From a virus, in the IMG/VR virus record IMGVR_UViG_3300046810_000149, positions 1 through 33,163 of that record: a stretch of 33,163 bases of DNA; one strand, written 5' to 3'. Position 1 is the stretch's first letter, and each line of letters begins with the position of its first letter. The translations under genes and the position numbers were made by a program. The notes under the pieces are model-generated. The model worked only from the letters and a program-made list of their open reading frames with translations. It did not search any database and was not told the origin of the DNA. This document shows positions 5,383-29,389 of this stretch, one piece after another.

Positions 5383-5898
5383 TCAGAGGCCCAGCGCGTT
5401 GCGGTGTGCTTCCAGCATGTCCACGCCGCCCACGATTTCGACCATGTTCACCAGGTCAACCTCGTAAAGCACCTCGCCGTTAATCGTCAGCTTGGCGTAG
5501 CTGTTGGTGCCGGACACTTTGGTGGTGCTGGACTCACCCGGTTTCCATTCGCCGGAGTCCACCTCCTTGTGGCGGCCACGAACGACCAGCTCAACGGCCT
5601 GCACTTCAGCGGTGTCATCGCGCTGGATGGATCCGGTAAAACGCAGCTGGATACCGTCCACGGTGGTAGCTCCCAGCTGCTTGAACAGCAGCAGTTCGGT
5701 GCCGCCAATGCTGAATTCGGTATCCAGCGCGCCATCATCCAGCCCCATATCGATGTCCACCGCGCCGGGCATCCCGCCGCCACGGTATTTTTCAAACTTG
5801 CGGGTGAATTTTGGCAGCGTCACGGACTCCACGATGCCCATCCAGTTGTTTCCGGCATTGAACATGTTGAGGTGCTTAAGCTTGCGGGGTAAGGCCAT
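5383..5898 (-). CDS. FII: Major tail tube protein FII
   Basis: The product is 171 residues (P2 FII 172). It polymerises into the inner tube of the contractile tail. The N-terminal MALPRKLKHLNMFNAGNNW and the GxVEIDMGLD-like segment are characteristic. AAGGAG sits eight bases before the ATG, a strong ribosome binding site as expected for an abundant structural protein. It follows the sheath gene FI with a 12-base gap. Confidence 0.95.
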   Translation of the reverse strand: MALPRKLKHLNMFNAGNNWMGIVESVTLPKFTRKFEKYRGGGMPGAVDIDMGLDDGALDTEFSIGGTELLLFKQLGATTVDGIQLRFTGSIQRDDTAEVQAVELVVRGRHKEVDSGEWKPGESSTTKVSGTNSYAKLTINGEVLYEVDLVNMVEIVGGVDMLEAHRNALGL

Positions 5899-5910
5899 GT
5901 TTCCGTCTCC

Positions 5911-7083
5911 TTATGCGCTGACGCGGCTGGCAAAGTTCACCAGATACTGGTCAGTAATACGCTGGCGCAGCAGCAGGTTTTCCAGCGGTGGCACCGGCGT
6001 ATAGTCGTAATCGATCCGCAGCTGCCCGGCTTTCAGCGTGTCTTTGGTGTTCACGCTTTCATCCAGCCAGCAGTCACCGCCAATGAGATAACCCTGGTTA
6101 ACCAGCTGGCGCATTTTGGCGCGGATACCTTCAATGATGTCGCGGGCCAGTGACGGGTTAAGCGGGCCGTCCACAGACCACATGTGTGCTTCCGCCATCG
6201 TGTCGGCCAGAACCTGCGCGGTGCGGGTGTAGTTTTCAAAGGCGAAAAGCGGATCGTCACTGAGGCAGCGGGAACCCCAGAAGCGAAAGCCGTCCTTGCG
6301 GATAAGCGTGGTGATGTCGTTCTTGTTCAGCAGACCCGCATCGGTGGCCGGATCCTGCAGGTCCCAGAACACATCGGCGGAAATGCCGGTGACGCCGTTC
6401 ACGCCGACGTTCGACAGGGTTTTGTGCCAGCCGGTCTGTTCGTCAATTTTGGCGCGCAGGCCCAGCGCGCGGGCGGTGGCGTAGGCCGTTGCGTCCGCAC
6501 TGGTCACGGTGTCAAAGTTGATGAAATCCGGCCAGATAAGCATCCCTTCGCGCTGGCTGAAGTTGTCGCGGTAGGCAATCGCGTCTTCAACGGTTTTACA
6601 GCCATACGCCGCCAGATAGGCAAAGCCGCGCAGGCTCTGCGCCACGGACAGCAGCTCGGTGGCCACCGCCTGCGTGTCATGCCCCGGCACGCCAAGAATG
6701 CGCGGCTTAACGCCCAGCTGCGCCTGCGCGGCCAGCAGCGCTTTCATGCCGGTGCGTTTGCCGTCAGTCGTCACGCCGCCGATGATGTTGGTTGTGGTTT
6801 CCGCTTCGGTTTCGCCCTGCGCCACGCGCACAATCACGGTAACGGGTTTCGCCTGGTCAGCAATCGCATCCAGTGAACGGGCCAGCGTGCCGGACTCCCC
6901 GGCCTTGCCGCTGGCGGTCAGTACGTCAGTAACCAGCACGGGCTTGTTGAGCGGGAACATCGCCGCATCGGCATCATCGCCGGTACAGACCATGCCCACG
7001 ATTGCCGTGCTGACGGTAGTGATGGTTCGGGTGCCTTCGTTGATTTCCTCAACGCGCACGCCGTGGTGATAGTCTTGCGCCAT
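5911..7083 (-). CDS. FI: Major tail sheath protein FI
   Basis: The product is 390 residues (P2 FI 396). It forms the contractile sheath around the tail tube. It starts [19 protein letters not shown] and has the conserved C-terminal region with [18 protein letters not shown] and the [14 protein letters not shown] segment. AGGAG lies nine bases before the ATG. It is the first gene of the F operon, about 24 bases downstream of the predicted Ogr-dependent start of transcription. Confidence 0.95.
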
Positions 7084-7153
7084 GTAACGAATCTCCTGTT
7101 AAGGGGTTTCGCTATGGTGAGAGGTCAGGCGGGTTACTGCACTCGGTTGCCGT

Positions 7154-7171
7154 TGTGTGGGGAGTGGTACA
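7154..7171 (-). promoter_or_regulatory. Ogr-binding site of late promoter PF
   Basis: The dyad TGT-N12-ACA is the P2 late-promoter activator element, normally centred near -55. Here it is centred at 7162.5, which puts the start of transcription near 7107, upstream of FI. CCATAG around 7112-7117 on the minus strand is a plausible -10. No good -35 is seen, as usual for activator-dependent late promoters. Confidence 0.7.
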
Positions 7172-7173
7172 AA

Positions 7174-7200
7174 TAAAACAGGCCCACTGGCGGGCCTGTT
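7174..7200 (-). terminator. Terminator after the baseplate/fibre operon
   Basis: A 9-bp stem (AACAGGCCC 7177-7185 with GGGCCTGTT 7192-7200) has a 6-nt loop and, on the minus strand, is followed by TTTTATTT. It lies three bases past the end of the tail fibre assembly gene and directly upstream of the PF activator site, so it separates the V-to-tfa operon from the F operon. Confidence 0.85.
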
Positions 7201-7202
7201 GG

Positions 7203-7793
7203 TTATGCTGGCATCTGAGGCCAGCTGATATCGGGGGCTGTTGAAACATCAACCGCCTGGACCATCTGGATATACTTCATCCAGACCGTCAGCAAAGCCT
7301 TGTCAGCGTCAGTGATAATGCCCAGTGAAAGCTGCGTCTGCCATGCCTGCGTCGCGCTGTTCGCCTGGCTGATTAATTCCGCCTTGTGGCGGGCGGCCTC
7401 AGCAACATTCGCGGCCCGCAGGGCATCCGCGTCCGTTACCCACTTTTTGCCGTCCCATACGTCAAAGACCGAGGACGGTTTAAGTGTCGTGCTATCAGAG
7501 GGATATTCACCCGTTTCGGTAACCATGACTTCAGAACCATCAGCCACTGAATAAACCGTTTCGCCACGGTGATCCGGTTCCGTCACCCAGCTGCCATTAC
7601 GGAAAATCACCACCTGCCCGGTGGCCACTGATGGCGGCACTGACGTGCAGGCATTGGCCGGGATCCCCACTCCGGGCAACAGATATTCATCCGTTGTTCC
7701 GGTATATTCCCCGCTGACGGCGTCGAAGTTATAGACCTTCAGCGTGCCTGCAGACTTTGCCAGCCCGTCATTATCTAATGTCACCTTAGCCAT
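7203..7793 (-). CDS. Tail fibre assembly protein (Tfa type)
   Basis: This 196-residue protein takes the place of P2 gene G, directly after the tail fibre gene. It resembles the caudoviral tail fibre assembly family: an N-terminal fibre-like part, a WDGKKWVTDADALRAANVAEA segment, then a helical C-terminus ending in DISWPQMPA. Such proteins chaperone fibre trimerisation and may stay on the fibre tip. Its ATG overlaps the H stop (TAATG). Fibre and chaperone usually exchange together. Confidence 0.85.
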   Translation of the reverse strand: MAKVTLDNDGLAKSAGTLKVYNFDAVSGEYTGTTDEYLLPGVGIPANACTSVPPSVATGQVVIFRNGSWVTEPDHRGETVYSVADGSEVMVTETGEYPSDSTTLKPSSVFDVWDGKKWVTDADALRAANVAEAARHKAELISQANSATQAWQTQLSLGIITDADKALLTVWMKYIQMVQAVDVSTAPDISWPQMPA

Positions 7794-8908
7794 TATGCAG
7801 CCCTCACAATGTAGTTAAATGCCACGTTCCGTGGGCGCACAGAAATCCACTGACTGCTGGTGATAACCCCACCCTGTTTTTGCTCGGCATACATACTGTT
7901 GTCGTTAAGAATTGCGCCAAGCGCGCCGTTTGCCGGAGATTTAGCATCGCCAGGCTGTGAACTTGTTACGCTGTCTGCCTGACTGAAAGAGGTACCAATG
8001 GTGCCGTTGGTTGTCGTTGCATCAGCGCCATAATAATCCAGCGCTGCCGTTCTGATTGATGTGGCCGCCTGGGACGAAAGCAGGGCACGGGCATTGTCTG
8101 CAGCCCGCCCGTCATCCCATCCACGAATAAACTCACCTCTCAAATCAGGCAATTTCAGTGAGGGGTACGCTTTTGCCAGCACCGGGTACGTTGTGGCGCT
8201 GAACGAGGCGCCATTGCATTTCAGCCATCCTTCGGGGGCAGCGGCAAGCGACCAGGGCAACGGCACGCCAACCGGCAGCGCAGAGCCAGTCCCCAGACCA
8301 AGATTTGTCAGAACGTCAGCTATTTTACCGGCGTCCTTAATCTCCTTCAGGGCATTTGCAATCTGAAGATATTGCTTATGGGGATTGGCGGCTCCGTTGT
8401 GCTCGGTCATCAGCTCTTCAGCGTACTGCCTGACAGTCAGGATTGCTTCATCAACATATTTACGGGTTGCCAGAACCACTGACGGGTCAATTTTGAGGGT
8501 GATGGCATCCGTGCTGTTCACAATCAGGATCATGCGGACGGTCTGCGTGCGCCCGCTTCCTTCCTGCAGCGCTGGCTTGTAGGTTTCCGGCGTATTGCAC
8601 ACGGCAATCAGCGTACCATCCTCGGAAAACAACCCCATCTCACGGATCCAGAATCCCCCGTCCGTTTCGGGAATAATCTGCTCTGCGACAATCTGGCTGG
8701 CGTTCGCCGGATCAACGCTCAGTGCATTGATTGCTGCCCGCCGGTTCTCATGCACCAGCGCCGTCTGTGTTGCGGTTGGGGTTGGCAGCAAGCCGTTCCC
8801 GTCACCCACGGCCATCTGGGTAATGTTCAGCTTGGTGCCCAGCGCGGCGGCATTCGCAATCTTCGCCGCGCCGAGGTTAGTCACGATGGCATAATATTTT
8901 TGTGTCAT
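7793..8908 (-). CDS. H: Short tail fibre protein H
   Basis: The product is 371 residues, much shorter than P2 H (669). Residues 1-150 form the conserved baseplate-attachment domain of P2 H (MTQKYYAIVTNLGAAKIANA). Around residues 215-290 is a collar-type domain with EGWLKCNG and LPDLRGEFIRGWDDGR. The end ISVRPRNVAFNYIVRAA is typical of receptor-binding tips. The repetitive shaft is almost absent. H determines host binding. It overlaps I by four bases and tfa by one. Confidence 0.9.
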   Translation of the reverse strand: MTQKYYAIVTNLGAAKIANAAALGTKLNITQMAVGDGNGLLPTPTATQTALVHENRRAAINALSVDPANASQIVAEQIIPETDGGFWIREMGLFSEDGTLIAVCNTPETYKPALQEGSGRTQTVRMILIVNSTDAITLKIDPSVVLATRKYVDEAILTVRQYAEELMTEHNGAANPHKQYLQIANALKEIKDAGKIADVLTNLGLGTGSALPVGVPLPWSLAAAPEGWLKCNGASFSATTYPVLAKAYPSLKLPDLRGEFIRGWDDGRAADNARALLSSQAATSIRTAALDYYGADATTTNGTIGTSFSQADSVTSSQPGDAKSPANGALGAILNDNSMYAEQKQGGVITSSQWISVRPRNVAFNYIVRAA

Positions 8909-10430: not shown

Positions 10431-10773
10431 TGTTCACCCCCGTTGATACCGACATTGAAACCGGGGAGCCGTCATCGCGCTGCCCGGCAATATCAACCTG
10501 CATTGAGCCATCAAAATCAGTCGTCAGGTTCACCGTATCCAGCCGGATACGTGGCTCCCAGCGACTGAGGGCCGAATAGGTGGCTGCCATAACCTGCAGG
10601 CGCAGCACATCGTTTTGTGGCTGGTCAATCAGCACCGATAAAAGTGAACCGTATTCGCGCCGCGCCACCCTGCTGCCCTCCGGGGTAACCAGAATGTCGC
10701 GCACCGACTGGCGGATATGGTCAATATCGGTAATGGCTTCGCCGGTATCCCGGTTCATTCCCAGATACATCAT
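10417..10773 (-). CDS. W: Baseplate wedge protein W (gp25-like)
   Basis: The product is 118 residues (P2 gpW 115) of the T4 gp25-like family. The motif DIDHIRQSVRDILVTPEGSR, including the conserved REYGS region that follows, identifies it. It is the central baseplate wedge piece that helps start sheath assembly. Its ATG overlaps the V stop by one base. Confidence 0.94.
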   Translation of the reverse strand: MMYLGMNRDTGEAITDIDHIRQSVRDILVTPEGSRVARREYGSLLSVLIDQPQNDVLRLQVMAATYSALSRWEPRIRLDTVNLTTDFDGSMQVDIAGQRDDGSPVSMSVSTGVNSGSN

Positions 10774-11351
10774 CAGTGTGGCCCTCCGGTATTTGCGCCG
10801 CCTTTTGCCACGCCATCATGGGTATGGCCATCCGCAACAACACCGTTAGAAGTCATTGACCCGCCGCCCTGCGTCACGCCACCGTTAATGACAACCTCAC
10901 TGTTAATTTGCGTCTGGTCTGCGGTGACGATGAACGCGCCTGTTTTCAGCTCTATGGTGTCCGAGGCTTCAATCAGCACGCTCTTTATGCCCTTTATGAG
11001 CCAGCGCCCGGTGGCAGGTTCATATTCAAACCAGCCGCCGTCCGGGTACTCCGTCAAGCTGCCATCTTCAGAATCCGAGGGCGGCGGGAAAGCATCAGAA
11101 TAGACGGCGGGCAGCGCAAAGGCGGTTTCCAGATTGCCGCCCAGACTCAGGAGCACAACCTGCTCACCCACTGACGGTTTCCACCAGGTGCGTGAATTCC
11201 CTGCCCGTAATGTCAGCCAGTTAATCCAGTTGGTTTCAAGGTCGCCCGTTTTCACCCGGCACAGCCATTTATCCTTATCCACTTCCGATACTGTCCCGGT
11301 GCGGATAAGGTTGGTGATAAGGCGCATGATTTCGGTCAGTTGTGCATTCAT
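10773..11351 (-). CDS. V: Baseplate central spike protein V
   Basis: The product is 192 residues (P2 gpV 211), a membrane-piercing spike. It has an N-terminal OB-fold with LTLRAGNSRTWWKPSVGEQV, then a beta-helical part, and near the C-terminus GHTHDG, the His-x-His that binds iron at the spike tip. It is the first gene of the baseplate operon. No Shine-Dalgarno sequence is visible before the ATG at 11351. The Ogr site centre is only about 55 bases upstream, so the leader may be very short. Confidence 0.92.
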   Translation of the reverse strand: MNAQLTEIMRLITNLIRTGTVSEVDKDKWLCRVKTGDLETNWINWLTLRAGNSRTWWKPSVGEQVVLLSLGGNLETAFALPAVYSDAFPPPSDSEDGSLTEYPDGGWFEYEPATGRWLIKGIKSVLIEASDTIELKTGAFIVTADQTQINSEVVINGGVTQGGGSMTSNGVVADGHTHDGVAKGGANTGGPH

Positions 11352-11794
11352 GCAGAAAGGTTGCCATTAACGAAAGTTAAGGGGCAGCGATGGGCATTGT
11401 GCGAGGGGTGATACAACGGTTCAGCTTAACTAGCTGATATAGAAGCGTACGTTCTCTGCCTTGAATTAAGTCTCACCTCAAACTCAGTTTTTTAATGAAG
11501 GAGGACTTTAGCGGATAACCTTAGAGTCATCGCTTGAGAAATTATGTAAGTGTTAATGAAACCATTGTTACGACAGTTTTTATATGAATGATCGGTACTG
11601 ATTCAAACAATATCATGGTGTTATGAATACTTCCCTTTCACAAAATTGATAAAAAACTTAAGCCAAACTGGTAAATCGTAAAGAGAAAGCTACCTTTATA
11701 ACGAAATGTTTCACGCTTCAAAGACCATCATGATGAGGTTCGTAGCGTTTTACATGGAAAGTTCATCACTCAACTATGACCATGAGGTTAGAAA
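11352..11794. other. Intergenic region between V and the alkyl sulfatase gene
   Basis: This 443-bp AT-rich stretch separates divergent genes. Its left part (to 11415) holds the PV promoter of the minus strand. The rest must contain the promoter of the sulfatase gene, but I see no convincing -35/-10 pair; TTGATA at 11646-11651 has no well-spaced partner. No open frame of note and no repeat is seen. Base composition shifts here from GC-rich phage DNA to AT-rich DNA, marking the left border of the cargo insert. Confidence 0.5.
11398..11415 (-). promoter_or_regulatory. Ogr-binding site of late promoter PV
   Basis: TGT-N12-ACA (TGT 11398-11400, ACA 11413-11415) is centred 55 bp upstream of the V start codon. 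It matches the activator sites before FI and O in form. GTTAAT at about 11366-11371 on the minus strand is a possible -10. Confidence 0.68.
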
Positions 11795-13774
11795 ATGAGA
11801 TTGAAGCCAGTCGTAATAAATATGGCCTTAGCGGGATTACTGTCCACTTTTGCAATTTCGTCCTTCGCCGAGTCGGTACCCCCTAAAGACGCCACAGACG
11901 CAACTAAACAGGCTAACGAGGCGCTTTACAATCAGCTACCCTTCTCCGATAAAACTGACTTCACCGATGCACATAAAGGTTTTATTGCTCCCCTTCCGCA
12001 AGAAGTGATCAAGGGTGAGCAAGGCAATGTCATCTGGAATCCCAAACAATACGATTTTATCAAAGAAGGGGAGAAAGCCCCGGATACGGTTAACCCAAGC
12101 CTGTGGCGTCAATCCCAGCTTATTAACATCAGTGGTCTTTTTGAAGTTACTGACGGGGTCTATCAGATCCGTAACCTCGATTTATCCAACATGACCATCA
12201 TTGAAGGCAAAGAGGGTCTGACTGTAGTCGATCCGCTGGTTTCGGCAGAAACAGCGAAAGTGGGTATGGATCTCTATTATAAAAACCGTGGGAAAAAACC
12301 CGTTGTTGCTGTGATTTACACTCACAGCCATGTTGACCACTATGGTGGTGTGCGCGGTGTTGTTGATGAAGCTGACGTGAAATCGGGCAAGGTAAAAATT
12401 TATGCACCTGCCGGATTTATGGACTCTGCTGTTTCTGAAAATATCATGGCGGGCAACGTAATGAGCCGCCGGGCCAGTTATATGTATGGCAACCTGTTGA
12501 AGGGAGACACTAAAGGTCAGGTGGGTGCTGGCCTTGGAACAACAACGTCAGCAGGTACCGTGACCCTTATTGCACCAACAAATTACATTACCAAGACCGG
12601 TCAGAAAGAAGTCATTGATGGACTGACCTATGACTTTATGATGGCGCCAGGTTCTGAAGCACCGGCTGAAATGTTGTGGTATATCGAAGAGAAAAAACTC
12701 ATTGAGGCTGCCGAAGACGTAACTCATACCCTCCACAATACTTATTCACTGCGTGGAGCTAAGATCCGTGAGCCTCTGCCTTGGTCTAAATATATTAATG
12801 ATGCCATCAATCGCTGGGGCGATAAGGCTGAAATTCTGATGGCTCAGCACCACTGGCCTACCTGGGGTAAAGAGAACGTCAACAAATTGCTGAAAAGTCA
12901 GCGCGACCTTTATCGTTATATTAATGATCAGACATTGCGCATGGCAAATGAAGGTCTGACGCGTGATGAAATTGCTGCCAACTTCAAACTTCCCCCTGAT
13001 CTAGCTCATACCTGGGCAAACCGGGGTTATTATGGTTCGGTGAGCCATGATGTCAAAGCTACCTATGTGCTGTATCTCGGCTGGTTTGACGGCAACCCGG
13101 CAACGTTGGATGAATTGCCACCAGAAGAAGCGGCGAAGAAGTTCGTTGATTACATGGGTGGTGCGGATAACATCCTCAAAAAAGCCAAAGATGACTACGC
13201 CCAGGGCAATTACCGTTGGGTGGCACAGGTCGTCAGTAAAGTGGTATTTGCAGATCCAAACAATAAAGCCGCGCGTGATCTGGAAGCTGATGCACTTGAG
13301 CAATTGGGTTATCAGGCTGAATCTGGCCCATGGCGCAACTTCTATCTGAGTGGTGCGCAGGAACTGCGGAATGGTGTGCAGAAACTTCCAACACCAAACA
13401 CCGCTAGCCCGGACACTGTCCGTGCAATGACACCGGAAATGTTCTTTGATTATCTGGCCGTGCATATCAACGGTGAAAAAGCGGCGAATGCGCATGCATT
13501 GCTGAACTTTGACTTTGGTAAAGATGGTGGAAAATACAAGGTAGAACTTGAGAATGGCGTGCTTAACCACACGGCAAATTCTTCTGCCGACAACGCAGAT
13601 GCAACAATCACACTTTCACGTGACACCCTGAATAAAATCATTCTTAAAGAAGAATCGCTTGATGATGCGAAAAGTAAAGGTGACGTGAAAATCACTGGTA
13701 ATGCAGACAAGTTGAATGAACTTTTGGGTTACATGGATAAATTTGAGTTCTGGTTTAACATCGTAACACCTTAG
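11795..13774 (+). CDS. Periplasmic alkyl sulfatase (SdsA1/YjcS type), cargo
   Basis: This 659-residue enzyme cleaves sulfate esters of primary alkyl chains such as SDS. A signal peptide (residues 1-25, ending SSFA) sends it to the periplasm. The metallo-beta-lactamase metal ligands are all present: H177, H179, D181, H182, E288, E307 and H352, each eight residues after its counterpart in Pseudomonas SdsA1. A helical dimerisation domain follows, then an SCP2-like domain from about residue 550. The length fits the family. It lies on the strand opposite to the flanking tail genes, at the P2 Z/fun locus, and has an AGG about eight bases before the ATG. It is lysogenic cargo rather than a virion gene. 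An alternative is activity on other sulfate esters. Confidence 0.92.
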   Translation: MRLKPVVINMALAGLLSTFAISSFAESVPPKDATDATKQANEALYNQLPFSDKTDFTDAHKGFIAPLPQEVIKGEQGNVIWNPKQYDFIKEGEKAPDTVNPSLWRQSQLINISGLFEVTDGVYQIRNLDLSNMTIIEGKEGLTVVDPLVSAETAKVGMDLYYKNRGKKPVVAVIYTHSHVDHYGGVRGVVDEADVKSGKVKIYAPAGFMDSAVSENIMAGNVMSRRASYMYGNLLKGDTKGQVGAGLGTTTSAGTVTLIAPTNYITKTGQKEVIDGLTYDFMMAPGSEAPAEMLWYIEEKKLIEAAEDVTHTLHNTYSLRGAKIREPLPWSKYINDAINRWGDKAEILMAQHHWPTWGKENVNKLLKSQRDLYRYINDQTLRMANEGLTRDEIAANFKLPPDLAHTWANRGYYGSVSHDVKATYVLYLGWFDGNPATLDELPPEEAAKKFVDYMGGADNILKKAKDDYAQGNYRWVAQVVSKVVFADPNNKAARDLEADALEQLGYQAESGPWRNFYLSGAQELRNGVQKLPTPNTASPDTVRAMTPEMFFDYLAVHINGEKAANAHALLNFDFGKDGGKYKVELENGVLNHTANSSADNADATITLSRDTLNKIILKEESLDDAKSKGDVKITGNADKLNELLGYMDKFEFWFNIVTP

Positions 13775-13779
13775 AAAAT

Positions 13780-13809
13780 TAGCTCAGGGGAATAATACCC
13801 CCTGAGCTA
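13780..13809 (+). terminator. Hairpin after the alkyl sulfatase gene
   Basis: A 10-bp perfect stem (AGCTCAGGGG 13781-13790 with CCCCTGAGCT 13799-13808) with an 8-nt loop begins six bases after the stop codon. The stem is strong but is followed by ATAAACTTT rather than a clean T run, so it may terminate only in part or protect the 3' end of the mRNA. Confidence 0.55.
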
Positions 13810-13937
13810 TAAACTTTCCGCACACTATTTCATCCTTCTGTATTTTAAATATTTCAATCTACATAATTAACGTTGACTCAATTTTAATGAAACAAAAAAA
13901 ACATCAATGATAATGCTTTTTACCAATTGGAATATCT

Positions 13938-14735
13938 ATGAACATAAATAAAGCGTCATTGCTGGTACTTCTTTTGCTAACCAGTGAGTCCTTTGCGCAG
14001 TCTGGTCAGGCTTCGGATGAGAAAGATAAGTTGGATGATGACCCGACCAAAGTCACCACAAAAGCGGGTGTCTCGTGGTCCGATAATTATGATCTTGATG
14101 ATAGCAATCTCTCGTTTTCTGGTTCCGTAGCTTTGGATGCGGCACGGAAACTCAACGCCCGCATTAATAGTGATGCCAGCGAATGGCGTATTGGTGGTTC
14201 CTGGCTATTTCCCGTGGGCATCCTGAACTTCAACTTTGGAAAAAATGAATACACAAATGGGGCTTCCCAAACTAACTATTCTGTAGGGACTTTTGTTCCA
14301 TTAAGTTATTTCGGTATTGAACCTGCGGGATTTCAGATTTTCCCAATGGCAGGCTATACCTATAACACAGGTGAGACACTGGGATGCAAAACGGATGGAA
14401 GCTCTAAATGCCCTTCACCAGAAATTATAGCCAGTGGGTCCACCGATTTGGGGTTAGACACAATAACCACCTCGGGCAGTAGCGGCTATCTTGGTTTGTT
14501 TACTTTGAAACCCTTGACCTCCGATCTGAGGGCCATTGCTTTTGCTGCCGGCTCGTATGGTTCAAAAAATGACGATGGCGAGAATTATAAGGGCTATTTC
14601 GGCGGTTTGGGTCTGGGTTACTCCCTGAACAAGCATAACTCCTTCAATCTACTTACATTCCTGATGGACAACAACACCTATCTGGAAGATCCTGATAAGC
14701 GGTTCTTACTTTCCTACACTTACCAGTTTAATTAA
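13938..14735 (+). CDS. Predicted outer-membrane beta-barrel protein, cargo
   Basis: The 265-residue product has a signal peptide (residues 1-20, ending SFAQ), an acidic linker (DEKDKLDDDPTK), then repeated amphipathic strands rich in Gly, Tyr and Asn. It ends in SYTYQFN, a final strand with aromatic residues at alternate positions as in outer-membrane barrels. A Cys pair (LGCKTDGSSKC) probably forms a loop disulfide. I do not recognise the family. It lies 163 bp after the sulfatase gene in the same direction, so it may admit or bind sulfated amphiphiles, but this is inference from context. It could also be a receptor-masking or surface-modifying factor. Confidence 0.7.
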   Translation: MNINKASLLVLLLLTSESFAQSGQASDEKDKLDDDPTKVTTKAGVSWSDNYDLDDSNLSFSGSVALDAARKLNARINSDASEWRIGGSWLFPVGILNFNFGKNEYTNGASQTNYSVGTFVPLSYFGIEPAGFQIFPMAGYTYNTGETLGCKTDGSSKCPSPEIIASGSTDLGLDTITTSGSSGYLGLFTLKPLTSDLRAIAFAAGSYGSKNDDGENYKGYFGGLGLGYSLNKHNSFNLLTFLMDNNTYLEDPDKRFLLSYTYQFN

Positions 14736-14880: not shown

Positions 14881-15327
14881 TCACTCACTCAGCCAGCGCA
14901 GGAGTGAGTCCTTCACTGAATTCTCGACGTCACTATTCACACCTAAAAGTGGGCGTTCTGCATATTTAACCTCAGTACCCCGCCGATTCACCTTATCCCT
15001 CAGCCCGTAGTGATGCACGCGGGCCAGTCGCTGCACCTGCCCGGTAAAAGATACCTCAGCCTGATTCGCACTGGCCTGCGCCTTTAGGTACTTCGCCGTT
15101 TTTAGCTTTGTGAACATTTTCCGGCGAATGCGGCCTTTCTTCGTTCTGGCCGTTATGCGCTTAGGTTCCCATGCCGTACCGTCCGGCGCGCGCTGTGCGG
15201 TGATGTTCGCCTGCTGAATTTTACGCACATCCCGCGCCACCTCGCGCAGCATCCGTGAACGTTGGGCGGGTTCCAGCTGATTCAGCAGCGCGGCCAGCCA
15301 GGCATCAACCTGCTGCAAATTATCCAT
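14881..15327 (-). CDS. S: Tail completion protein S
   Basis: The product is 148 residues (P2 gpS 150), of the phage virion morphogenesis family. It is basic, with the conserved APDGTAWEPKRITARTKKGRIRRK region and a VHHYGLRDKV motif. It is needed to join or finish the tail. Its start overlaps the end of R by eight bases. It is the last gene of the O-to-S late operon and borders the cargo insert. Confidence 0.92.
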   Translation of the reverse strand: MDNLQQVDAWLAALLNQLEPAQRSRMLREVARDVRKIQQANITAQRAPDGTAWEPKRITARTKKGRIRRKMFTKLKTAKYLKAQASANQAEVSFTGQVQRLARVHHYGLRDKVNRRGTEVKYAERPLLGVNSDVENSVKDSLLRWLSE

Positions 15328-23353: not shown

Positions 23354-23971
23354 TCAAAATCCAAACAGTGAATTACTTCTAATTGCTGGAACTTCTGCGG
23401 AATTTCTTTTTGCAGCAGGAACCATAGCTTTTCTTTTGTCGAATGCCTGATCTATAAAATATTCAGGATTAACTACAAATTGTGAAAATCTCACCAAAGA
23501 GCAAAAGACATCACTGTCATTATAATGTGGCACTGTTTTTTCATAAACATGATTTTTCTTAACAAGGTATGGAAGATATAAATCATAACCGACACCTGGA
23601 GTTCTCAGACCCATTGAGCACCCACAACTCGCATCAGAACATGTGGCAGGAGAAAAGATGCTATCGTAAAGATCATCTCGAATGACTCCCACTAGCCCAT
23701 TATAACCATCACCCCATAAGGAAGCTTGTATTTCTGAGTTAACAAATTTTCTTTGCTTTGTTTCCCTACCAATCAAAACCACAGTAACAGTAGAATCTTC
23801 AAGGTATTCCTCACGGATTTTTCTCATGATACTTTCTTCACTGATAGTTGTACTTATATCCCCATCACTAACAGATTTATCTATAAATGACTCCCCCCCA
23901 AATTTCTCAATAAGATCATCTTTGAGGTCTTGCTCATTCGCATGATGATAACTTAGAAAAGTCTTGTGCAT
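23354..23971 (-). CDS. TIR-like protein (DUF1863/ThsB type), putative defence gene
   Basis: This 205-residue protein starts MHKTFLSYHHANEQDLKDD, the first strand and helix of the MTH538/ThsB-type TIR-like fold. Conserved features follow: FIDKSVSDGD, then SIMRKIREEYLEDSTVTVVLIG, RETKQRKFVNSEIQASL with a Glu at position 80 where TIR enzymes keep their catalytic Glu, and a later YLPYLVKKN. ThsB proteins make NAD-derived signals after phage infection. The frame could start at 23983, but the ATG at 23971 has GGGAG five bases upstream. The gene follows the membrane-protein gene at once. GC content is about one third, unlike the neighbours. The role in defence is inferred. Confidence 0.75.
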   Translation of the reverse strand: MHKTFLSYHHANEQDLKDDLIEKFGGESFIDKSVSDGDISTTISEESIMRKIREEYLEDSTVTVVLIGRETKQRKFVNSEIQASLWGDGYNGLVGVIRDDLYDSIFSPATCSDASCGCSMGLRTPGVGYDLYLPYLVKKNHVYEKTVPHYNDSDVFCSLVRFSQFVVNPEYFIDQAFDKRKAMVPAAKRNSAEVPAIRSNSLFGF

Positions 23972-23973
23972 CA

Positions 23974-24702
23974 CTACTCCCATTTTTCAATTTCAATTTC
24001 AAATTTAATAGCAAAAGATTTTTTGAAAAAATCATTCACATCCATAAAACCCTCAACAATCTTAGCAAAATGGTAATAATGTGTTTGAATTGTGCCGATA
24101 GGGGTCAAATGGTAGGATAAGGAAATAATCTTACCTTCTGAATCTTGATCTTGCGTTTGCACACAATCCTTTTCAGATATAAATTTATGCCACCGCCTGT
24201 AATTATTTTGATGTTGTGTCAAAAAATCATTGAGCGTTTTAAGGGCTTCATTGGAAATCAAGTAAAGATCTTTATCTCTTTTTCTCTTGATATTAAGTAT
24301 TTTCATTTCACTTCTAATGAAGTTATAACATTCGAAATAAGAGTTCAACACCTCATCAAAGGCATCATAATTTGGATTAATTTTAAAAACGGTGCGCTTC
24401 GTATCAAAATAATTCTTTATTGATTTTTTGAACAAAATGTCGGAATTATCAAATAGAACATTAATACCACCAAAGCTTAACTGTTCAACTTTGAAAGAAT
24501 AACGCTTGTGCGCGGCTCCTACTAGAAGTAGGTATGCCACAAGACACAAAATAAACACTGATAATAATGCTTTGATGATGCCAACATTTGACATGAAATT
24601 GGCAGTAAACCACCATTTCTCCATAGGAGAAAATGGAACTGAACCAATGATAGTCATGAGCAATACAAACAAGCACCCCCATGAAACCCAATACTTTAAC
24701 AT
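23974..24702 (-). CDS. Two-helix membrane protein paired with the TIR-like gene
   Basis: The product is 242 residues. Helix 1 (about 5-22) and helix 2 (about 40-63) are followed by a charged cytosolic domain of about 180 residues, rich in Lys, Phe and Tyr and mostly helical (YFECYNFIRSEMKILNIKRK, then DKDLYLISNEALKTL). I do not recognise the soluble domain. AAGGAT lies seven bases before the ATG. Its last bases (TGGGAGTAG) carry the ribosome binding site of the TIR gene, so the two are one operon. By analogy with Thoeris and CBASS membrane effectors it may damage the membrane when a TIR signal binds. This is inference. Confidence 0.6.
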   Translation of the reverse strand: MLKYWVSWGCLFVLLMTIIGSVPFSPMEKWWFTANFMSNVGIIKALLSVFILCLVAYLLLVGAAHKRYSFKVEQLSFGGINVLFDNSDILFKKSIKNYFDTKRTVFKINPNYDAFDEVLNSYFECYNFIRSEMKILNIKRKRDKDLYLISNEALKTLNDFLTQHQNNYRRWHKFISEKDCVQTQDQDSEGKIISLSYHLTPIGTIQTHYYHFAKIVEGFMDVNDFFKKSFAIKFEIEIEKWE

Positions 24703-25527: not shown

Positions 25528-27789
25528 TTACATAGGTTTACCTCTCTGCTTCTCTGCAAGTAGATGAAATCTGGTAAGTAACTCTGTTGCACTGGTTCTC
25601 TTGCGGGGCAGTAACAGCTCACCTTGTGAAGTACTGCTGAACCACATCCCACCAATCCGCGTTTCAGTTCCATCAACCAAACGTGAGGCCAGTCCGCGGC
25701 TTATAACTTCGCCACTAAGATCACGCACCTGTTCAATCACACGAATGCATGCGGCCTCTTTCTTATCCGAACGCTTGAACACTTTGGCTGACTTTTGAGG
25801 CTGTTCGGAACGTATTCTGGTCAACTGCTTGCGCCGTTCCTTCCTGCTCATACTTCCAAAGTCCAAATCAGGCATACCTTCCGGTATCATCAGATCCTCA
25901 GATCCCGATCTCCCCGTACAGTTATTGACAGAACTCCGAGAGGGCGCATTCGCACCCTTAAGGTCAACCCCCAAATCAACGGCCCGTTTCGCGACAATTT
26001 TCCACTGTACGAGACGGGTCAGGATTGGGGTGTCTTCGCCAACTGATGTGGCGTATACGCCTTTGATGCGCACGGTTTCCTCGCCGTACTCGTTGCACTC
26101 TTCCGATGACTGATACCAGGTGCGCACCGCCAGCTCATCGCGACGGACAAACGGCCCGCCCTGAGCGTTAACATATTCAGCCCAGTCGCCAGCGTCGGCG
26201 GCATCATGCGCTGCAGCAAACTCGACACTAAGACCGTGAGCCGCTTCGCTGTCATCCATGCGGCGCAGTTCGCGGTAAACCGTCACCGGCGCACCGCCAA
26301 CAAACTGAAACTGGCGAATGTGCCACCGTGCCGCCCAGGCTGAAACGGCTGGCGCAGTCTCTTTAAGTTCTTTCCCGCTCTCGTCGTCAAGCTCACCATC
26401 AAGAGCGTATCCGTCGATATTCTTAGAAATGTATTTCGCCACATAGCCCGTCGCACTGCCTTTATCGGGATCGATGGCTTCAGCGTGAAAGCGGGCCTTG
26501 CGGGCTTTATCCGTAGTCAGTTCATCACTCTCTTCCTGATAGGCGTAATCACGCAGGATTTGACGTACGCGGTCCACGTTTTCTGGAAGCATAAACATCA
26601 GCATGTGCCAGTGAGGCGTAGCGTCATGATGCGGCTCAGCTACACGAATGCCGAAAATGCGAATATCTTCACGATGCAGTTTTGCGCGGACTTTCTGCCA
26701 AACATTGCAGAGATAATGCTGAGTGTCTGCCGGGCTTGCACCATTCCATTTGCGGTTGCGGTAGCCAGTTTTGATAGTGGCGTGATACCGCGATGGTGCA
26801 GTGATGGTATAAAATTCCCCCACAAAGCCCATCTCGTTACAGATATCCTCAAAGCCACGAATACGGGTCATCAGCTCACAGCGGCGGATCGCGGGGTTCG
26901 CCACGCTGCCGTCATATTTTTCAATCAGGCTGATGCGGTTGCCTTCTTCGTCTTCCAACTCCATCCCTTTGAGGAATTCACGGGTACGGCGTTTCTGCTC
27001 ACGCCATTCGATCACGGTCATGCTGCTGGCATACGGGGTATGTTTTTTGCTGACGTTAGCCATGGCAATCTGAAGGTGTTCACGCCATGAGGCGGCAATG
27101 CGGCGCAGGCGGCCTTTCCACCATTTTTCAGTCTGCATCCGCATAATGGCCGGGGTGACTTCTTCCGGGTCAAACAGACGGGAGGTGACCTTTTCCCAGA
27201 GTGGCGGGGTCTGCTTCAGTTCACGCGTGATGGTTGCCGCCATCATGTAGATGCGGTGTGTGTATTTGTAGTCGGATTCATCGCTGCCCTGGCCGTGCGC
27301 CTGTACCATCTCAGCCAGAATAAAGCTGGCAATGTCGCCGGCCAGCAAATCAACGTCGGCGCGGGCCATCTCAGGCAGACGGTTAAATCGTCTCATTACC
27401 TCCCATAACGTACCGGCAGCAGTAGCAGCACGGCTGTTGTCTCCGGCGTTCTCCGCCAGTGTTGTGAACGTGCCCTGATGCATTTCGCCAAGACGATATT
27501 GCGCATTCACCAGCTCAAGGCGTGGCAATGTCCGCTCAACGAAGGTTTTCGTTAAGTAGGCATTGGCCCGCTGAACTCCGTGCTCTTTTTCCAGCTCATT
27601 CAGGCGGCGGTTAACATCGATACGCACCAGGGCGGGCTGGGCTTCCAGCAATTCGCGTGCATGCGAAACGGCCGCGATCAGTTGATCACGGCGGAAGATT
27701 TCTTCATAGGTGAGGTATGGGCTGGCGATGGCCTGCCGTGGTGCGTTCCAGGCATAAGCCCATTCTTGTGAAGTAGTTGGGCGGTTCAT
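25528..27789 (-). CDS. A: Replication initiation endonuclease A
   Basis: The product is 753 residues (P2 gpA 761). It nicks the phage origin and stays bound to the 5' end to drive rolling-circle replication. The HUH metal motif is HWH at 393-395 (PHWHMLMF). The two catalytic tyrosines are Y449 and Y453 in GYVAKY, matching P2 Y450 and Y454. The origin lies inside the gene at about 25925. The gene overlaps the DpdA-like gene upstream by four bases. P2 A acts in cis. Confidence 0.94.
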   Translation of the reverse strand: MNRPTTSQEWAYAWNAPRQAIASPYLTYEEIFRRDQLIAAVSHARELLEAQPALVRIDVNRRLNELEKEHGVQRANAYLTKTFVERTLPRLELVNAQYRLGEMHQGTFTTLAENAGDNSRAATAAGTLWEVMRRFNRLPEMARADVDLLAGDIASFILAEMVQAHGQGSDESDYKYTHRIYMMAATITRELKQTPPLWEKVTSRLFDPEEVTPAIMRMQTEKWWKGRLRRIAASWREHLQIAMANVSKKHTPYASSMTVIEWREQKRRTREFLKGMELEDEEGNRISLIEKYDGSVANPAIRRCELMTRIRGFEDICNEMGFVGEFYTITAPSRYHATIKTGYRNRKWNGASPADTQHYLCNVWQKVRAKLHREDIRIFGIRVAEPHHDATPHWHMLMFMLPENVDRVRQILRDYAYQEESDELTTDKARKARFHAEAIDPDKGSATGYVAKYISKNIDGYALDGELDDESGKELKETAPAVSAWAARWHIRQFQFVGGAPVTVYRELRRMDDSEAAHGLSVEFAAAHDAADAGDWAEYVNAQGGPFVRRDELAVRTWYQSSEECNEYGEETVRIKGVYATSVGEDTPILTRLVQWKIVAKRAVDLGVDLKGANAPSRSSVNNCTGRSGSEDLMIPEGMPDLDFGSMSRKERRKQLTRIRSEQPQKSAKVFKRSDKKEAACIRVIEQVRDLSGEVISRGLASRLVDGTETRIGGMWFSSTSQGELLLPRKRTSATELLTRFHLLAEKQRGKPM
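25925..25947 (-). other. ori: Replication origin (A-protein nick region) inside gene A
   Basis: The minus strand reads CTCGGAGTTCTGTCAA within 25925-25947, which differs by one base (T for C after GAGT) from the P2 ori core as I recall it (CTCGGAGTCCTGTCAA). It encodes SRSSVNNC in gpA, so it serves as coding sequence and origin. P2 and 186 also carry the origin inside A. The exact nick position is not assigned. Confidence 0.6.
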
Positions 27790-28538
27790 ATTTCAAATGC
27801 CAGTTGGGGAGTAAATATATCTTTTACGGCATCATAATTAAGAGAACTGGCGCTGTTCATTGACTCAATACGCTCAACAAGCACAGAAGCCCTAGTTTCT
27901 TTACTTGCTGGAGCATAAGCACTTTTGTTCCAAGCTTTATCAATACCTATGTTTCTCGCTACGTTCGTACTGTCTGCAGAGGACAAAGGTATTTGAGTGA
28001 ATAAGCTTTTATTCAGCATTCGCAATCCGTGCAGTTTAGCGATTGGATAGCCGTTTTCATCTACAACATGACGAATTAGATCGCGAAGGCGTGCGCCGCA
28101 ATCTTTGGGCCTTCTTGCGTCGTATTCCCCCATCGAACCTACCGCAACTCGAGGGAATTCATGGCACAGACGAATGAACCGTTCATCTGGCTCATTCATA
28201 TGCCACACAGGTACTCCAATGACTTTACCGTGCGGCCACTCAGCAATAAGCGCATCATTTTCTTCACTGCTGCCGCCAATTACATCCGGGATGATGGCAA
28301 ATGAAAAGCGGGGATGGTTAGCCCAGCGCGCCACGAACTTGTAATAAACGCTCCAACTCACAACGCGATTTTTTGTCCAAAAGCTGAACGCGCCATTATC
28401 CAGCGCGAAGCTCTGGCAAATTTCACTTGCAAGGGGCAACTGGGATGCATTTGCAAAACTGATAAACGCATGCCTACCTTTCCAAGCTTTCAGCGCGCAG
28501 GTATCTGGCGTGATTGGTCCCCCGTGATAATGGATCAC
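27786..28538 (-). CDS. DpdA-like protein (tRNA-guanine transglycosylase fold)
   Basis: The 250-residue product shows the signature order of the TGT/DpdA superfamily: ALDNGAFSFW (TGT: DSGGF), AIIPDVIGG, GVPVWHMNE, RVAVGSMGEY (TGT: GGLAVGE), LHGLRML and SSADSTNVARN (compare DSTSW). DpdA enzymes exchange guanine in DNA for a 7-deazaguanine; related TGTs act on tRNA. No preQ0 synthesis genes are present, so a substrate would come from the host. It overlaps dam upstream and A downstream by four bases each, so it is expressed early with them. Substrate unknown; the family call is by motif only. Confidence 0.6.
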   Translation of the reverse strand: MIHYHGGPITPDTCALKAWKGRHAFISFANASQLPLASEICQSFALDNGAFSFWTKNRVVSWSVYYKFVARWANHPRFSFAIIPDVIGGSSEENDALIAEWPHGKVIGVPVWHMNEPDERFIRLCHEFPRVAVGSMGEYDARRPKDCGARLRDLIRHVVDENGYPIAKLHGLRMLNKSLFTQIPLSSADSTNVARNIGIDKAWNKSAYAPASKETRASVLVERIESMNSASSLNYDAVKDIFTPQLAFEI

Positions 28539-29389
28539 AATGCAATCTCGCTTAATAGCCCAGGATAAATTTGCGGGTTAGCATGCTTCACCGCCGTGCC
28601 AATCGGCCGGCTGACGGCAATAATCTCTTCCGCGTTTTTGCCCCTTCCAGCGGCTACACCAATGCTGCGCGGGACAGTAATCTGATGAAGGTCGAACTGG
28701 CGATAGAGACTTTTAACCAGGCGGGTGTGGCTGTTGGAAGCGATGACCGGATGGCGGGTAGCCATATCACTCAGGACAGATGCCAGCTCATACTGTTTAT
28801 CTTTTCCAAAGCCTCCACTGTGATAATCCGCAAAGGTGTCATCGTATGGAGGATCGCAATAAACCACATCGCCGGTTTTAAGCATGTTCAGCGTTTCAGT
28901 AAAATCAGCACAAACGAACGTTGCCCGTTTTGCTTTTTCTGCAAAGGCTTTGATTTCTTCCAGCGGAAAATACGGCTCAGTGTAATTACCAAAGGGGATA
29001 TTGAAATTGCCCTTCTGGTTATAGCGACACATGCCGCGATAGCCATTGCGGTTCAGATAAAGGAAATAGGCAGCGCGTTCCAGCAATGGCAGACCAAGAT
29101 GATGATTAAATGCTTCGCGGATCGTGTAATAACTTTCCTGCGTGCGATTTTCCGCAAATGCCCGGAATGCCAAAATAATGAACTGCTGAGAGTTATCTTT
29201 AATCTGACGATAAAGGTTAATCAGGTCTGGATTAACGTCCGCCACCAGATAAGCAGGATAATCAGTGTTCATCATCACAGCACATGAACCCGCGAAAGGT
29301 TCAACGAGGCGATCGCCCGCCGGCAAGTGTTTATTAATCTCAGCCATGATGCGTGACTTACTGCCAGCCCACTTCAAAACGGTGTTCAT
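28535..29389 (-). CDS. dam: DNA adenine methylase (Dam, D12 class)
   Basis: The product is 284 residues. The SAM-binding motif KWAGSKSRI is at residue 6, FAGSCAV follows, and the catalytic DPPY is at 179-182, in alpha-class order. Enzymes of this type methylate adenine in GATC. 186-like phages also carry dam in the early operon. It may protect phage DNA from restriction or keep GATC sites methylated during fast replication. It overlaps the DksA-like gene upstream and the DpdA-like gene downstream. Confidence 0.9.
   Translation of the reverse strand: MNTVLKWAGSKSRIMAEINKHLPAGDRLVEPFAGSCAVMMNTDYPAYLVADVNPDLINLYRQIKDNSQQFIILAFRAFAENRTQESYYTIREAFNHHLGLPLLERAAYFLYLNRNGYRGMCRYNQKGNFNIPFGNYTEPYFPLEEIKAFAEKAKRATFVCADFTETLNMLKTGDVVYCDPPYDDTFADYHSGGFGKDKQYELASVLSDMATRHPVIASNSHTRLVKSLYRQFDLHQITVPRSIGVAAGRGKNAEEIIAVSRPIGTAVKHANPQIYPGLLSEIAL

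Follow-up and report, generated by a model that had tools for sequence, protein, structure and literature searches.

A candidate sulfated-amphiphile cassette in the orf30 slot of a P2-like prophage

A P2-like temperate phage carries, between its tail genes V and S, a gene for a complete alkyl sulfatase of the SdsA type and, beside it, a gene for a protein that is likely an outer-membrane beta-barrel. Our data suggest, with a probability of roughly 0.6, that these genes form a horizontally acquired lysogenic-conversion module for sulfated amphiphiles lodged in the orf30 slot. Sequence comparisons further indicate that the sulfatase has entered unrelated phages repeatedly and is under strong purifying selection.

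The prophage and its S-V cargo

The window, by which we mean the whole 33,163-nucleotide stretch analysed here, is a P2-like (Peduoviridae) prophage that counts the Elveevirus phages Cartapus and 4LV2017 among its named relatives. The minus strand carries D, U, T, FII, FI, G, H, I, J, W, V, S, R, the lysis genes, L, M, N and O, as well as A; P, Q, a CI-type repressor gene and the integrase gene are on the plus strand. The features of the cargo region are as follows.

10773 to 11351, minus strand: gene V, baseplate spike, left edge of the orf30-type slot (Phage_base_V, Apex)
11398 to 11415, no strand assigned: Ogr-type late-activator box TGT-N12-ACA, 47 bp upstream of V
11795 to 13774, plus strand: sulfatase gene, 659 aa (Pfam, PDB relatives, PHROG 8061)
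13780 to 13809, no strand assigned: inverted repeat with a 12-bp stem, directly 3' of the sulfatase stop codon (terminator scan)
13938 to 14735, plus strand: putative barrel gene, 265 aa, with signal peptide (open reading frame; no Pfam, NCBIfam or PHROG match)
14881 to 15327, minus strand: gene S, tail completion, right edge of the cargo slot (Phage_tail_S)

An earlier note on this DNA had described two opposite-strand genes between V and S that are AT-richer than the tail genes, and both points hold. Pfam confirms the flanking genes, and the cargo genes, antisense to the tail genes, have a GC content about 10 points lower (46.7% for the sulfatase and 45.3% for the barrel gene, against 55-62%) and a GC3 of 46-48% against 62-76%. 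The same note placed the cargo at the Z/fun position. The P2 annotation rules this placement out: fun(Z) is located in the G-FI gap, whereas the antisense gene orf30 lies between S and V, where the cargo is found. The window's own G-FI gap, of about 120 bp, is without cargo.

P2-like phages vary at three loci, namely the orf30 site, the Z region and the cos-proximal (TO) region (PMC3091744). The window cargo has the features of the first, being antisense genes between S and V that are replaced or absent in relatives. The S-V gap is empty (73-93 bp) in five related phages and holds other antisense genes in nine further phages, P2 and Cartapus included. The cargo is absent from relatives and foreign in composition, as would suit a candidate moron; such a gene would also have its own transcription and be expressed in the lysogen. 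Among the relatives' S-V genes are an OLD-like ATPase and the candidate defence families PDC-S59, PDC-S31 and PDC-S15, and the slot may serve as a defence hotspot that has been little described. In an Erwiniaceae prophage (L210), an OLD-like ATPase/TOPRIM gene at 5538-8149 fills it.

The late promoter region is undisturbed by the cargo, since the Ogr-type box still stands 47 bp upstream of V; the P2 pV box stands 42-69 bp upstream of V (P2 annotation). Boxes of this form are not enriched in the window (5 observed against 7.4 expected by chance), so the evidence for this one lies in its position and not in the count. Our promoter and terminator scan gave counts near the shuffled expectation, and no conserved operator or regulatory motif was seen upstream of the sulfatase gene. 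By score, the hairpin at 13780-13809 resembles a terminator on the minus strand alone, its T-tract on the plus strand being weak; it is a possible terminator between the two cargo genes.

Three similarities lead us to suspect an Erwiniaceae host: the closest chromosomal sulfatase is that of Mixta theicola (93%), the closest plasmid-borne barrel protein comes from Pantoea (74%), and Erwiniaceae prophages share up to 79% DNA identity with the window across the S-O region.

Two other gene pairs in the window deserve mention. At 23354-24702 on the minus strand, genes for a ThsB-type TIR protein (PF08937; PADLOC ThsB and PDC-M50B models) and for a membrane protein of 242 aa without a family adjoin each other and form a candidate two-gene TIR defence system. 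The pair occupies the cos-proximal slot between Q and A, a site known in P2-like phages as an anti-phage hotspot. At 27786-29389, also on the minus strand, genes for a Dam-like DNA adenine methylase (28535-29389, assigned by eye) and a neighbouring 250-aa protein without a family adjoin the replication gene A.

A complete SdsA-type sulfatase

The sulfatase contains, in order and at full length, the Pfam domains Lactamase_B, Alkyl_sulf_dimr and Alkyl_sulf_C. This arrangement of metallo-beta-lactamase fold, dimerisation domain and SCP2-like C-terminal domain is that of a type III sulfatase. The protein also matches PHROG 8061 over its full length, and residues 31-659 align with PDB chains 7tl5, 4nur (SdsAP), 4pdx (YjcS) and 2cfu (SdsA1). 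We used the published zinc ligands and selectivity pair of SdsAP as the reference for mapping (PMC5426288). The seven ligands (HxHxDH, Glu, Glu, His) fall on H177, H179, D181, H182, E288, E307 and H352, and the substrate-selectivity Tyr/Gly pair characteristic of primary alkyl sulfatases falls on Y231 and G248. Domain content and ligand mapping thus agree with the earlier reading of a complete SdsA1-type enzyme with all seven metal ligands. Sec-type signal peptides were read by eye at the N termini of both the sulfatase and the barrel protein. By these features the gene at 11795-13774 encodes a complete SdsA-type (type III) alkyl sulfatase, predicted to be secreted, with an intact active site, and we infer that it acts on primary alkyl sulfates.

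A putative outer-membrane protein of a nameless family

The 265-aa product of the second gene matched no Pfam, NCBIfam, PHROG or PDB profile. It ends in YTYQFN; the 25 homologues that we aligned with it share DPTK, WRxGGSWLFxxGI and related motifs, and most end in or near F. Searches with the 26 members of the family gave weak single-member hits (Porin_4, 0.012; OMP_b-brl, 0.19), and AlphaFold models built from 2 or 3 sequences were unusable (pLDDT 34). The protein also lacks a match to PF03349, the family of FadL/Toluene_X transporters, unlike the sulfatase neighbour in another locus (L038). Its signal peptide, its terminal aromatic residue and the ends of its homologues make it likely that the protein is an outer-membrane beta-barrel of a nameless family. 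Of the earlier description as a barrel protein with a signal peptide, the second half stands, while the barrel label is plausible but has no family or usable model behind it. A search of a broad gammaproteobacterial sample for the barrel gave no match and was uninformative. One viral contig with a 44% identical barrel protein (L190) was rejected as a case of cargo, being a Mu-like phage contig that ends in apparent host DNA.

The sulfatase recurs in unrelated phages

Our scan of IMG/VR viral contigs found 36 viral loci with a related sulfatase. Sulfatases 85-96% identical are carried by other P2-like phages, by lambdoid phages (including the Salmonella Gifsy type) and by another contractile-tailed phage. 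The earlier note had thought metabolic cargo at this locus unusual; as a one-off, this view is not borne out, and carriage by Gifsy-2 was already published as an annotation.

The pair itself recurs in related prophages, so that the refuting case named in the earlier note, a pair that never recurs, does not apply. Two metagenome contigs carry it between S and V, at 99.8% (L002) and, on a partial contig, 96% (L117) nucleotide identity with the window. In a second P2-like phage (L003), sulfatase, barrel and a 261-aa protein are encoded beyond Q on the cos-proximal side, and the order and relative orientation of sulfatase and barrel genes differ from those in the window. Elsewhere in P2-like phages the sulfatase gene is found between S and V, alone and running in the sense direction (L020), at a contig end past Q, again on the cos-proximal side (L034), or past D (L026, L027). 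In the other contractile-tailed phage (L023) it follows the tail-fibre genes, together with MscS and FadL genes. In lambdoid phages it is found mostly in the replication-nin region: beside a divergent GGDEF gene in about 20 contigs of the Salmonella ZC-S1_prp type (L004 group), with MscS and FadL genes in two (L030, L031), with a FadL gene in three (L021, L024, L073) and in one further contig (L022). It follows the lambdoid tail-tip genes in L029.

Alkyl sulfatase and GGDEF (diguanylate cyclase) genes are repeatedly paired (L121, L122, the L004-L035 group, L043, L062, L070 and others); this holds on the chromosomes of Enterobacteriaceae and also in lambdoid prophages of the Salmonella type, where the two genes diverge. 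An alkyl sulfatase of about 50% identity, left without annotation, is present near the ends of four phage records labelled Listeria (OR846723.1, OR846729.1, OR848255.1 and OR848249.1); the DNA is possibly not of phage origin.

A tree of 103 sulfatases requires 8 switches between cell and phage, at least 6 of them forced by well-supported branches. The sulfatases of the window and L003 group with the chromosomal gene of Mixta theicola (SH-aLRT 99), and one well-supported clade brings together carriers of three kinds, P2-like, other contractile-tailed and lambdoid. A single acquisition by phages is ruled out by the tree and by the differing insertion sites. Between the window and L003 the sulfatases share 95.6% of residues, and the phage proteins N, O, P and Q share 56-68%. 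Across phage-host and phage-phage copies dN/dS is 0.016-0.03 (0.015-0.022 for sulfatase pairs with measurable dS, 0.029 for the barrel), values that are approximate because dS is high. The sulfatase thus occupies at least six phage sites in at least three phage types under strong purifying selection, which points to a recurrent benefit to lysogens. We found no measurement of such a benefit in the literature searched.

Partner genes in cellular and plasmid clusters

Two Pantoea plasmids encode the sulfatase, a protein of the 261-aa type, YicS and FadL, followed downstream by the barrel protein and MscS; one of the two additionally has an arylsulfatase and a maturase. Phage and chromosomal partners were identified as FadL and MscS by Pfam. 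Among 30 barrel loci in bacterial genomes, two have an alkyl sulfatase gene within 10 kb. The genes adjoin in one, an Erwiniaceae genome (L163), and lie within 3 kb in the other (L180), with a patatin-like gene (assigned by eye) between them. No sulfatase gene is nearby in the other 28 or in the K. aerogenes and Vibrio plasmids that we inspected. The function of the barrel need not be specific to sulfate esters, since most of its cellular homologues have no sulfatase nearby. In about ten probable Vibrio genomes (L168-L179) a FadL-type gene lies directly upstream of the barrel homologue; these loci are related and amount to few independent cases. Inspection of two of these Vibrio loci showed a one-base overlap between the FadL and barrel genes, with an enoyl-CoA hydratase-like gene upstream.

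The window cassette resembles a cut-down version of a larger cluster in cells, made up of sulfatase, outer-membrane proteins, FadL, YicS, MscS and sometimes arylsulfatase. Different phages, in turn, look to carry different subsets of it.

Proposed function and alternatives

If the two genes form a conversion module, both would be expressed from the repressed prophage. The sulfatase would be exported to the periplasm, act there as a dimeric zinc enzyme and split primary alkyl sulfates, be they SDS-like compounds or sulfated lipids and alcohols that occur in nature, into alcohol and sulfate. The barrel protein would insert in the outer membrane and could aid the crossing of amphiphilic substrates or products. 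The lysogen would thereby gain sulfate and possibly fatty alcohol, or dispose of a sulfated amphiphile.

Prophage porins and Lom-type proteins can act in superinfection exclusion or receptor replacement. The main rival explanation is that the two genes are unlinked passengers, the sulfatase being general metabolic cargo and the barrel an exclusion or receptor-replacing outer-membrane protein. Several observations fit it: the slot is common to defence-like genes in relatives, a hairpin lies between the genes, their relative orientation differs between the window and L003, and barrel homologues often occur without a sulfatase. We nevertheless consider it rather improbable, because two phage types and four clusters in cells or on plasmids contain both, and linkage in the 30 genome loci exceeds expectation (2 found against about 0.2 expected, by our own rough estimate). 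Barrel homologues also keep company with FadL, enoyl-CoA hydratase or patatin-like genes.

Alternatively, the sulfatase could defend the lysogen against detergent or bile by breaking down anionic surfactants, for example SDS or sulfated bile alcohols. Enzymes of this class hydrolyse SDS (PMC5426288), and the Gifsy-2 'yjcS' has been linked to SDS resistance by annotation (PMC10138188). On the other hand, Yersinia ruckeri remained resistant to SDS when its alkyl sulfatase was lost by mutation, AcrAB-TolC being responsible for that resistance, and the bacterium cannot grow with SDS as its only source of carbon (PMC4207315). These results disfavour simple SDS protection and weaken the detergent tolerance that the earlier note had offered as one benefit. 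Copies of the gene in plant and soil Erwiniaceae also argue against this alternative, which we regard as unlikely. The cassette probably serves sulfate or lipid scavenging instead. That the cargo is decaying or neutral DNA lately acquired by one phage, as its GC below that of the backbone might suggest, is contradicted by purifying selection and recurrence (open frames, intact ligands, dN/dS of about 0.02, and the pair in the same phage type in L002 and the partial L117) and is very improbable.

The recurrence of the sulfatase hints that phages spread an alkyl-sulfatase trait among enteric and plant-associated bacteria. More speculatively, temperate phages of Enterobacterales, whether P2-like, lambdoid or of another contractile-tailed type, could together distribute a modular operon for the use of sulfated amphiphiles, with the sulfatase as constant core, varying envelope subsets and the barrel as a new uptake family. 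We hold this broader scheme doubtful; were it true, lysogeny would give access to host- or plant-derived sulfated lipids. The recurrence makes one question testable: what sulfated lipid in nature is encountered by enteric and plant-associated bacteria so often that phages carry the enzyme for it?

Comparison with known systems

Prophage cargo is usually discussed as toxins, effectors and defence genes. The enzyme family, the variable locus of P2 and a prophage-borne alkyl sulfatase are each already known separately. As far as our searches show, three things are new: the occurrence of the pair in the orf30 slot, the range of unrelated phages that the sulfatase has repeatedly entered, and the link between a nameless, probable outer-membrane family and FadL and sulfatase clusters.

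The window sulfatase is homologous over its full length to SdsA1 and SdsAP (2cfu, 4nur; the nearest solved chain is 7tl5) and shares with them the seven zinc ligands, the Tyr/Gly pair and a signal peptide. It differs in being phage-encoded and in that its substrate and activity are predicted; its scores against 7tl5 and SdsAP exceed that against E. coli YjcS. Phage carriage of the sulfatase is not new in itself, because it is annotated in ZC-S1_prp and a 'yjcS' in the Salmonella Gifsy-2 prophage has been mentioned at the level of annotation (PMC10138188). The ZC-S1_prp enzyme, likewise prophage cargo, is 86% identical to that of the window. The Gifsy-2 type is lambdoid, however, and its gene lies in the replication-nin region, mostly beside a divergent GGDEF gene, without the barrel.

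The Pantoea clusters (NZ_CP142690, NZ_CP144369) share both families with the window (sulfatase 85-87% and barrel 73-74% identical) but are larger, with FadL, YicS and MscS added. In P2, orf30, fun(Z), tin and old are non-essential cargo antisense to late genes, as in the window, where the cargo takes the place of orf30 and not the fun(Z) locus. The conversion genes of P2 are exclusion genes, whereas the window cargo comprises a metabolic enzyme and a putative outer-membrane protein.
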